Positions 33,593-50,742 of a stretch of 64,000 nt of DNA are shown here, in pieces. The notes under the pieces are model-generated. The model made no database searches and had not been told where the DNA came from. It worked only from the letters and a program-made list of their open reading frames with translations. The translations under genes were made by a program, and so were the position numbers. The DNA is taken from assembly GCF_003697815.1 (NCBI RefSeq), contig NZ_RDQG01000036.1:1-64000 (forward strand), written 5' to 3'. The stretch is from Halalkalicoccus subterraneus (GTDB lineage: Archaea; Halobacteriota; Halobacteria; Halobacteriales; Halalkalicoccaceae). The stretch's first letter is position 1. Every line of letters starts with the position of its first letter.

Positions 33593-33724
33593 GCGACACC
33601 TACCGGTCGTGCGTTTCCGGACTTAAGGGTTGTTATTCACCCGAACCCGTCCCCGACGGGAGACGCGCGTCCGACGCGATCCTAAACGTTGATATACTCG
33701 GGGTAGCTATAAACGCCCAGTTCG

Positions 33725-34225
33725 ATGAGCAAGGTAACCTTTCGCGCGGACGACGACCTCGTTGCCCGCATCGAGGCGATGGACACCTCGAAAAGCGAGG
33801 TCATGCGCGAGGCGCTCCGCGCGTACCTCGGCTCCGAGCCCAGCGCGCCCGGCGGGACCGAGGGTTCGCTCGATTCGCTCATCACCGACAAGATCGACCG
33901 ACGGATCGACGACCGACTCGCCGGCGGCACCGACCTCACCGTCACCGTCGCGATCGAAGACGACCGAGTTCGGACCGAACGCGACGCGAAAGCGGCGCAA
34001 ACGACGCAAACGGACGAAGACACGCCCGACGATTCGACCGGGCGGGAACACGCCTGCCAGCAGTGTGGCGAACCCCTCGAAGACGCGCACGCCTACTGTC
34101 CGAACTGCGGCGAGAAGGCCACGGACCCCGCGACCTGTCACTGCGGGATCGAGCTCCGATCGGACTGGGCGTTCTGTCCCGACTGCGGCCGTCGGACGCC
34201 CGCCGCGGACGTGCTGGACCCCTGA
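33725..34225 (+). CDS. cdrL: CdrL-like RHH and double zinc-ribbon protein
   Basis: A 166-residue protein with an N-terminal ribbon-helix-helix (VTFRADDDLVARIEAMDTSK, 4-23, then SEVMREALRAYLG), a charged linker and a C-terminal pair of zinc ribbons (Cys111/114/125/128 and Cys138/140/151/154). This architecture and its place upstream of a small RHH gene and ftsZ2 match CdrL, a regulator reported for the cdrS-ftsZ2 division operon. The likely targets are the GTAAGAC sites just downstream. A GATATAC box lies about 30 bases before the ATG. Confidence 0.85.
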   Translation: MSKVTFRADDDLVARIEAMDTSKSEVMREALRAYLGSEPSAPGGTEGSLDSLITDKIDRRIDDRLAGGTDLTVTVAIEDDRVRTERDAKAAQTTQTDEDTPDDSTGREHACQQCGEPLEDAHAYCPNCGEKATDPATCHCGIELRSDWAFCPDCGRRTPAADVLDP

Positions 34226-34244: not shown

Positions 34245-34252
34245 TTTTAATA
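34245..34252 (+). promoter_or_regulatory. TATA box of cdrS-ftsZ2
   Basis: TTTTAATA would place transcription start near 34275-34280, leaving a 5' leader of over 100 bases before cdrS. The predicted start coincides with the palindrome that follows. A TATA box close to the cdrS ATG is not seen. Confidence 0.5.
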
Positions 34253-34277: not shown

Positions 34278-34293
34278 GTAAGACACGTCTTAC
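34278..34293. promoter_or_regulatory. GTAAGAC palindrome, candidate CdrL/CdrS operator 1
   Basis: GTAAGAC and GTCTTAC, perfect seven-base arms two bases apart, lie at the predicted transcription start of the cdrS-ftsZ2 operon. Symmetric seven-base arms suit a ribbon-helix-helix dimer. The same seven bases recur twice below. Confidence 0.6.
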
Positions 34294-34339
34294 GTGCTGG
34301 CCATCGACTCGCCACGGATGGGGCGGGTCTGGCCGTTTT

Positions 34340-34376
34340 GTAAGACACGACGACTGCATTTCGGTCCTCGTCTTAC
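34340..34376. promoter_or_regulatory. GTAAGAC inverted pair, candidate operator 2
   Basis: GTAAGAC (34340-34346) and GTCTTAC (34370-34376) face each other across 23 bases, ending 15 bases before the cdrS ATG. They repeat both arms of the upstream palindrome. Spacing is wide for one dimer, so two dimers or looping are possible, as is a stem-loop in the mRNA leader. Confidence 0.5.
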
Positions 34377-34391
34377 ACAAGGGGAAGAATC

Positions 34392-34571
34392 ATGGAACGT
34401 GTGACACTGCGAATCCCGGAACAACAGATAGAAGAGGTCGAACGAATGGTCGAGACGGGGCAGTTCCCCAACCGCAGCGAGGCGATCCGCGCCGCGGTTC
34501 GGGAGATGCTCGACGAGCGGGGTGTTGGCCAGGACACCCAGCAAACCGAACGCACGTGGGCGAAGGTGTAA
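34392..34571 (+). CDS. cdrS: CdrS, short ribbon-helix-helix division regulator
   Basis: A 59-residue RHH protein: beta strand ERVTLRIPE (2-10), then helices over 11-20 and 29-43 with the [14 protein letters not shown] segment. CdrS is reported in haloarchaea as a regulator controlling ftsZ2 and cell division. Here it is followed by ftsZ2 with only three bases between stop and ATG. It is probably cotranscribed and perhaps autoregulated through the GTAAGAC sites. Confidence 0.9.
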
Positions 34572-34574
34572 CCG

Positions 34575-35720
34575 ATGCAGGACATCGTCCGCGACGCGCT
34601 CGACAACGCCGAGAGCGAGCAACAGCGCAAACGTGAGCTCAGCGACGCCGAGGAGTTCGGCGATCCGCGGATCGTCATCGTCGGCTGTGGTGGTGCCGGT
34701 AACAACACCGTCAATCGGCTCTACAACATCGGCGTCGACGGCGCCGAGACGGTGGCGATCAACACCGACAAACAGCACCTCCAGATGATCGAGGCCGACA
34801 CGAAGATCCTCGTCGGCAAGTCCCTGACCAACGGACTCGGTGCCGGCGGCGACCCCGAGATGGGCGAGCGTGCCACCGAGATGGCCACCGGCACCATCGA
34901 GGAGGTGCTCGGCGACGCGGATCTCGTGTTCGTCACTGCCGGTATGGGCGGTGGCACCGGCACCGGCGCGGCACCCATCGTCTCGAAGATCGCGAAAAAC
35001 CAGGGCGCGATCGTCGTGGGTATGGTCTCGACGCCGTTCAACGTCGAGCGGGCTCGTACGGTGAAAGCCGAGGAGGGACTCGAGAAACTCCGAAACGAGG
35101 CCGACTCGATCATCGTGCTCGACAACAACCGCCTGCTCGATTACGTCCCGAACCTCCCGATCGGAAAGGCGTTCTCGGTGATGGACCAGATCATCGCCGA
35201 GACGGTGAAAGGAATCAGCGAGACGATCACCCAACCCTCGCTGATCAACCTCGACTACGCCGACATGACCGCGATCATGAACCAGGGTGGCGTCGCCGTC
35301 ATGTTGGTCGGCGAGACCCAGGACAAGAACAAGACCGAGGAGGTCGTCAACGACGCGATGAACCACCCGCTGCTCGACGTCGATTACCGCGGCGCTTCGG
35401 GTGGCTTGGTCCACATCACCGGCGGCCCGGACCTCACGCTGAAGGAGGCCGAGGGCATCGCCGACAACATCACCGAGCGCCTGGAGGCCAGCGCCAACGT
35501 GATCTGGGGCGCGCGCATTCAGGAGGAATACAAGGGCAAGGTCCGGGTGATGGCGATCATGACGGGCGTTCAGAGCGCCCAGATCCTCGGCCCGAGCACG
35601 CAGAAACAGGCCGACCGCTCGCGGGCCTCGATCGACGGCCGGCAGGTCGACGCCGGTGCCCAGAGCGACGGCGGCCAGGACGAGCTGGAGAAGAACAACG
35701 GGCTGGACGTCATCCGCTGA
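34575..35720 (+). CDS. ftsZ2: Cell division protein FtsZ2
   Basis: A tubulin-superfamily GTPase, 381 residues, that constricts the division ring in haloarchaea together with FtsZ1. The GTP signature GGGTGTG is at 125-131 and the T7 loop NLDYAD (225-230) carries the catalytic aspartates Asp227 and Asp230. The acidic C-terminal tail ends NNGLDVIR. FtsZ2 rather than FtsZ1 is indicated by the short N-terminal extension and the cdrS linkage. It is translated from the cdrS mRNA. Confidence 0.94.
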
Positions 35721-49513: not shown

Positions 49514-49584
49514 ACCGGTCGGACGCGTGTCGGACGGAAACGGGAACAATCATTACGATGGGTACATTACGAGCGCGCAAGACA

Positions 49585-50742
49585 ATGGACTCGATCATTC
49601 AGGACGCCGTCGACAACGACGAGGCCGAGCAGGCGGCGCCGGGAGACGACACCGAGGACGCCGAGGACGACGGCGTCGCCCCCGAGGTCAGCGAGTCGGG
49701 GCAGATGACCGACGAGGAGCTTCGCAACGTACTGGAGGACCTCCAGACCAACATCACCGTCGTGGGCTGTGGCGGCGCCGGCGGGAACACCGTCAACCGG
49801 ATGGAAGAGGAGGGGATCCACGGCGCGAAGCTCGTCGCCGCGAACACCGACGTCCAGCACCTCGTGGAGATCGAGGCCGACACCAAGATCCTGCTCGGCG
49901 AGCAGAAGACCCGCGGCCGGGGCGCGGGCTCGCTCCCGCAGGTCGGCGAGGAGGCAGCGCTGGAAAGCGAGGACGAGGTCAACGACGCGATCCAGGGCTC
50001 GGACATGGTGTTCGTCACCGCAGGGCTGGGCGGCGGGACCGGCACCGGGAGCGCGCCGGTCGTCGCAAAGGCCGCCCGCGAGTCGGGTGCGCTCACCATT
50101 GCCATCGTCACGACGCCCTTCACCGCCGAGGGCGAAGTCAGGAGAACGAACGCGGAGGCCGGGCTCGAACGCCTTCGGGACGTCGCCGACACCGTGATCG
50201 TCGTCCCGAACGACCGCCTGCTCGATGCCGTCGGCAAACTGCCCGTCCGGCAGGCGTTCAAAGTCGCCGACGAGGTGCTCATGCGCTCGGTGAAGGGGAT
50301 CACCGAGCTGATCACCAAACCCGGGTTAGTGAACCTCGACTTCGCGGACGTTCGAACCGTTATGGAGAAGGGCGGCGTCGCCATGATCGGGCTCGGCGAA
50401 AGTGACTCCGAGTCGAAGGCCAAGGACTCGGTGAAGTCGGCGCTCCGATCGCCCCTGCTCGACGTCGACATCTCGGGGGCGAACTCCGCGCTGGTGAACG
50501 TCACCGGCGGCAACGACATGAGCATCGAGGAAGCCGAGGGCGTCGTCGAGGAGATCTACGAGCGCATCGACCCCGACGCCCGCATCATCTGGGGCACCTC
50601 CGTCGACGAGGAGCTCGAGGGTGCGATGCGGACGATGATCGTCGTCACTGGCGTCGACTCCCCGCAGATCTACGGTCGGGAGGAAGAGCAACAACAGGAA
50701 CAGTCCGCCGGGCAGCTACAGGACATCGACTACGTCGAGTAA
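49585..50742 (+). CDS. ftsZ1: Cell division protein FtsZ1
   Basis: The second tubulin-like division GTPase, 385 residues from this start, thought to assemble first and position FtsZ2. It has GGGTGTG (149-155) and a T7 loop NLDFAD with Asp252/Asp255. An acidic N-terminal extension (residues 10-45) and a Gln/Glu-rich tail distinguish it from FtsZ2. The ATG at 49558 would add nine residues. ATG 49585 is favoured by an AT-rich ATTACGA box 30 bases upstream and by the family start MDSII. FtsZ1 and FtsZ2 lie about 14 kb apart on the same strand. Confidence 0.93.

Follow-up and report, generated by a model that had tools for sequence, protein, structure and literature searches.

A once-per-genome palindrome at the cdrS-ftsZ2 promoter of Halobacteria and its probable role as an operator of ribbon-helix-helix regulators

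The leader of the cdrS-ftsZ2 operon of Halobacteria carries a palindrome, GTAAGAC-N(2-5)-GTCTTAC. Of 222 haloarchaeal species, 216, from 70 of 71 genera, have exactly one copy in the genome; the reversed pattern, used as a control, was found in 0 of 222 genomes. The palindrome and its companion sites are real and under strong selection, and we consider it probable that they form a feedback operator array on a structured leader, a set that would be read by the ribbon-helix-helix (RHH) protein CdrL and very likely also by CdrS. The DNA analyzed in detail was a 64,000-nt stretch of Halalkalicoccus subterraneus (contig NZ_RDQG01000036.1, assembly GCF_003697815.1), referred to below as the window; its features are listed in Table 1.

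Table 1. Features of the window around cdrS-ftsZ2 and ftsZ1 (positions counted from the first base of the window).
Feature	Position	Strand	Description	Basis
Degenerate CdrS-type site, cdrL promoter	33658..33675	.	GGGAGAC-GCGC-GTCCGAC	2/12 mismatches to GTCNGACN4GTCNGAC
cdrL	33725..34225	+	166 aa, RHH domain and double zinc ribbon	Pfam RHH_1, DZR, Zn_Ribbon_1
TATA-like element, cdrS-ftsZ2 promoter	34245..34252	+	TTTTAATA	Distance to palindrome
O2 palindrome (arms 1 and 2)	34278..34293	.	GTAAGAC-AC-GTCTTAC; about +3 to +18 of the transcript from the inferred start	Conservation
SL2, predicted leader-RNA stem-loop	34294..34339	+	Arm 2 to arm 3	Fold z, compensatory pairs in Halalkalicoccus
Arm 3	34340..34346	+	GTAAGAC, left half of O3	Leader comparison
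SL3, predicted stem-loop	34347..34369	+	Arm 3 to arm 4	Fold z, one compensatory pair in Halalkalicoccus
Arm 4	34370..34376	-	GTCTTAC on +, right half of O3, directly before Shine-Dalgarno	Leader comparison
cdrS Shine-Dalgarno	34381..34386	+	GGGGAA	Kept in leader alignments
cdrS	34392..34571	+	59-aa RHH protein	Pfam RHH_1 1.5e-9
ftsZ2	34575..35720	+		Pfam Tubulin and FtsZ_C
CdrS-type site, ftsZ1 promoter	49518..49535	.	GTCGGAC-GCGT-GTCGGAC	67 nt before ATG; the window's only such site
ftsZ1	49585..50718 (ATG to end of aligned part)	+		47% identical to FtsZ2

The palindrome and its companion sites

The initial annotation of the window had described a perfect palindrome with two further arms 62 and 92 bases on, positions and distances that proved correct, between a gene for an RHH protein with zinc ribbons and an operon whose first gene encodes another RHH protein, assignments with which the Pfam matches of cdrL and cdrS agree. 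Exact GTAAGAC heptamers number six on the two strands of the window (3.2 expected by shuffling), and four of them lie within 99 bp. The 16-bp palindrome (O2) is the sole occurrence in the 3.61-Mb genome with two mismatches allowed; the N4-spaced form, searched in the same genome with up to two mismatches, gave 7 matches versus 6 for the control.

A cdrS match was present in 222 of 222 haloarchaeal genomes, and we read 153 cdrS leaders, of which 110 were left after removal of near-duplicates. Absence of the sites from other haloarchaeal cdrS leaders had been named beforehand as grounds for refutation, and conservation turned out to be class-wide: besides the genome counts given above, all 14 bases of O2 match in 106 of the 110 leaders, 13 in two and 12 in two. 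RHH genes adjoin O2, with cdrS directly downstream in all leaders and cdrL upstream in about 95%. The O2 spacer (n = 106 leaders) is 4 bp in 85, 5 in 13, 2 in five, 3 in two and 6 in one, the 2-bp form being that of Halalkalicoccus and one close metagenome bin. With arms of 7 bp the centers lie 9-13 bp apart (11 bp in 85 of 106 leaders), so that O2 has the short inverted half-sites, about one helical turn apart, of an RHH operator; we counted the variability of the spacing, 2 to 6 bp, against an operator model. Presence of the palindrome beyond Halobacteria was rejected because matches there were at chance level: the pattern was in 3 of ~204 genomes outside the class, which does not exceed the reversed control, and in 41 of 43 inside it. 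A literature search for the heptamer GTAAGAC found no relevant paper.

A TTTATA-like element begins 32±2 bp upstream of the left arm of O2 in 97 of 110 leaders, which puts the inferred +1 some 2-3 bp before the palindrome; the earlier statement that the palindrome sits where transcription should start is thus right to within a few bases, judged from the TATA distance. Just upstream of the BRE/TATA lies a further site, O1, marked, with the left arm of O2 as reference, by GTCTTAC at -52±1 or GTAAGAC at -62 to -65. At least 6 of its 7 bases are present in 92 of 110 leaders but in none of 110 control windows placed 60 bp farther upstream, and because O1 falls outside the transcript of the cdrS-ftsZ2 promoter, we take it to be read as DNA. 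O1 was not recognizable in the window species; in some congeners its place is taken by GTCGTAC. Downstream, 72 of 106 leaders have arm 3 at 62-68 bp from O2 (73 including one at 89 bp), and arm 4 is found in 94 of 106, 20-33 nt before the ATG. O1 had been overlooked in the initial annotation, as had the CdrS-type site in the cdrL promoter, the probable structure of the leader RNA and the eight species that lack CdrL and keep the palindrome, all described below.

Two side observations concern related sequences elsewhere. Three genomes of a single family have GTAAGACAYGTCGTAC, one mismatch from the palindrome, downstream of cdrS at a distance of 1.3-3.3 kb (G119:C6:158789-158804, G160:C95:8079-8094 and G182:C3:853904-853919). 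GTAAGCC-N4-GTCTGAC stands directly upstream of an unrelated RHH gene (L248; G000:C15:22588-22605), a placement that may reflect autoregulation with a related motif.

A sister motif and the two candidate readers

A related motif, GTCNGAC-N4-GTCNGAC, lies immediately before the TATA, with no more than one mismatch, in 16 of 20 haloarchaeal ftsZ1 promoters, including that of the window (0 of 20 when shuffled). At ftsZ1 it coincides with the place of the published CdrS ChIP-Seq site of Haloferax volcanii, at -50; the motif reported for CdrS in that species is symmetrical and precedes ftsZ1, PanA, hisB and a PRC-domain gene (PMC8406309). The sister motif, with no more than one mismatch, also precedes genes of these four kinds in Haloferax marinum, which we matched to the published list by reading protein sequences without a family search; since further matches in that genome fall inside genes or upstream of unlisted genes, this supports a CdrS motif but does not prove it. 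From the sequence comparisons, GTCNGAC-N4-GTCNGAC is most likely the CdrS motif, and GTAAGAC would be private to cdrS-ftsZ2. A perfect CdrS-type site, GTCAGACACATGTCTGAC, also occurs directly upstream of a gene for a ParA/Soj-like ATPase (L258; G000:C16:34612-34629); CdrS affects sojA in Halobacterium salinarum (PMC7439475).

A single base per half-site, on the outer side of each arm, separates GTAAGAC from GTCAGAC. The third base of O2 is A rather than C in 99% of leaders, so O2 is a relative and not a member of the CdrS regulon motif, with which it shares N4 spacing in 85 of 106 leaders (the window itself has N2). The suggestion that the half-sites could stand for a single CdrL/CdrS motif shared across a regulon was therefore not borne out: the GTAAGAC palindrome occurs once per genome, GTAAGAC is absent from ftsZ1, and ftsZ1 and genes of the CdrS list carry GTCNGAC-N4-GTCNGAC instead. 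A wider GTAAGAC regulon (N4 spacing, up to two mismatches, ten genomes) was likewise rejected, other matches being few and several of them of the CdrS type. The remark that the motif was not noticed upstream of cdrL holds for GTAAGAC but misses the sister motif, which is present in 35 of 94 cdrL promoters with at most one mismatch and in 59 with at most two (0 and 3 when shuffled), mostly 55-75 nt before the ATG. Of the earlier reading overall, the candidate binding sites stand and the single shared motif with its regulon is not supported.

In Hbt. salinarum the sole reproducible CdrL ChIP site genome-wide is upstream of cdrS-ftsZ2 (PMC7439475), which makes CdrL the leading candidate reader; this single site matches a once-per-genome motif. 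Given this peak and the class-wide conservation, the half-sites are very probably, as first proposed, binding sites of the CdrL/CdrS system. CdrL was reported in an earlier paper to be present in all Halobacteria, a statement at odds with eight genomes of 94-99% completeness, from seven genera and four families, in which it was undetectable. Six of these absences come from full scoring in a search that recovered two positive controls (G001, G007, G093, G136, G138 and G183), and those in G002 and G026 come from a phylum search in which only part of the candidates were scored. All eight genomes keep O2 at 14/14 and arm 4 at 7/7; O2 is thus not confined to genomes with CdrL, as a CdrL-only operator would be, and something besides CdrL must also need it. 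O1 is at 7/7 in 71 of 103 genomes with CdrL versus 1 of 8 without (Fisher p about 0.003, shared ancestry ignored), and arm 3 is mostly degraded in those without (Fisher p 0.002, shared ancestry ignored). We read this as O1 and arm 3 depending on CdrL and O2 and arm 4 serving something universal, most simply CdrS, which is probably the additional factor.

Neither cdrS nor cdrL is on the published Hfx. volcanii CdrS ChIP list, and the CdrS used there bore an N-terminal FLAG, adjoining the DNA-reading strand (PMC8406309). The N-termini read M-E-R-V-T-L-R in CdrS and M-S-K-I-T-F-R in CdrL. In RHH proteins alternate residues of this strand contact bases, so that R3 in CdrS versus K3 in CdrL should be the main DNA-reading difference, and we hypothesize that it accounts for half-site position 3 being C in one motif and A in the other.

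The probable leader structure and alternative explanations

The transcribed leader is probably structured, as judged from predicted folds. Relative to shuffled sequences the whole leader has a mean fold z of -3.76, and values are also negative for the segment between arms 2 and 3 with the arms excluded (mean -2.04, 73 leaders) and for the insert between arms 3 and 4 (mean -1.22, 63 leaders); the controls gave +0.09 for untranscribed promoter and -0.36 for a cdrL segment. The predicted best fold joins arm 1 to arm 4 and arm 2 to arm 3, and in 61 of 63 leaders this arrangement comes to within 1 kcal/mol of the minimum. Inverted DNA sites make pairing of the arms in RNA unavoidable. Six Halalkalicoccus leaders show compensatory change at 5 of 36 pairs (1.8 in shuffles, as high in 7 of 500), and sliding the pairing partners in this alignment reduced the number to 0-2. 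Across the class no RNA covariation was seen in an alignment of leaders picked for intact arms, where arm invariance holds by construction and the inter-arm loops do not align between families, and Rfam covariance models gave no match to the leader up to E=1. A switch between 1-2/3-4 and 1-4/2-3 pairing was judged unlikely, the second being favored in 54 of 58 leaders; in Halalkalicoccus a 2-nt loop moreover forbids 1-2 pairing. In Natrialbaceae-like leaders (A5 columns 82-92; e.g. L026, L055) a nearly invariant GTC(T/A)GACAGGGGCG lies between arms 3 and 4, where it is a CdrS-type half-site and also belongs to a predicted hairpin.

Three other explanations of the sites were weighed. CdrL alone might read GTAAGAC as a dedicated one-target regulator, leaving CdrS no role at this promoter. 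The single CdrL ChIP site, the once-per-genome motif, the lack of cdrS on the Hfx. volcanii CdrS list and the decay of O1 and arm 3 where CdrL is lost all fit such an arrangement, but we regard it as unlikely in view of the intact O2 and arm 4 in the eight genomes without detectable CdrL. Nor was an RHH substitute recognized among the RHH matches inspected in those genomes, which, judged by eye, were NikR-like or antitoxin-like; a 36-aa RHH query gave no matches, not even CdrS, and that search is hence uninformative. That the palindrome is a terminator or 3′ processing hairpin of cdrL is barely credible: it does lie on the cdrL strand, after the stop codon, but no T run comes after it, its position is fixed relative to the cdrS TATA, and it persists where cdrL is absent.

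Alternatively, the arms could be kept mainly for RNA: 1-4 and 2-3 pairing would give the 5′ leader a three-way junction governing translation or stability. The fold scores, negative outside the arms as well and near zero in untranscribed promoter, the compensatory pairs in Halalkalicoccus and the near-minimal 1-4/2-3 fold agree with this, as does the finding that ribosome occupancy of cdrS-ftsZ2 in Hbt. salinarum does not track its mRNA (PMC8303175). We nevertheless hold it to be quite improbable, because the arms lack the class-wide covariation that a plain RNA stem would show, the identical heptamer is kept upstream of the TATA, arm 3 or arm 4 is missing in some lineages, and the predicted fold leaves the Shine-Dalgarno mostly open. 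Dual use of the arms, as DNA operators for CdrL/CdrS and as leader-RNA pairing (1-4, 2-3) that adjusts cdrS-ftsZ2 translation, possibly via the same RHH proteins, is a tentative possibility.

A proposed feedback loop for division-protein dose

Bacterial RHH repressors such as NikR, MetJ, CopG and Arc bind inverted or repeated half-sites, and autoregulation is common among them. The arms described here resemble these operators, and one RHH dimer per half-site would be expected; they differ in lying on both sides of an archaeal TATA/BRE promoter and within the leader, at one locus per genome. The region bound by CdrL in Hbt. salinarum (PMC7439475) agrees with ours in promoter, operon and the single target per genome, but was described as a ChIP peak without a sequence motif, for which we give a probable site at base resolution and class-wide. 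With the CdrS motif of Hfx. volcanii (PMC8406309), reconstructed here as GTCNGAC-N4-GTCNGAC, the cdrS leader shares half-site length and N4 spacing but has A at half-site position 3. Furthermore, the published CdrS sites lie upstream of promoters and cdrS is off that list, whereas O2 lies downstream of the start.

In the operator array that we favor, each seven-base half-site would hold one RHH dimer, two dimers sitting side by side about one helical turn apart, with O2 as the strongest site of a set around the cdrS-ftsZ2 promoter. From their positions we infer that O1, just upstream of the BRE/TATA, would serve activation and that O2, just downstream of the start, would serve repression, with O3 in the leader. 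Reading of this set by CdrL, and very likely by CdrS too, would use feedback to fix how much CdrS and FtsZ2 is made. A two-gene loop is predicted to be closed by CdrS, which would read GTCNGAC-N4-GTCNGAC in the ftsZ1 promoter and, in many lineages, in that of cdrL; the structured leader would probably add a second, translational layer.

These sites bear on how archaea set the dose of their division proteins. The published CdrL peak, which had no motif, now has a base-resolved, class-wide candidate site, and two near-identical motifs can be told apart, GTAAGAC for the operon itself and GTCNGAC for ftsZ1 and others. This pair of motifs parallels two regulators whose main difference is a single DNA-reading residue, and the distribution of the sites predicts a CdrS-CdrL feedback loop.
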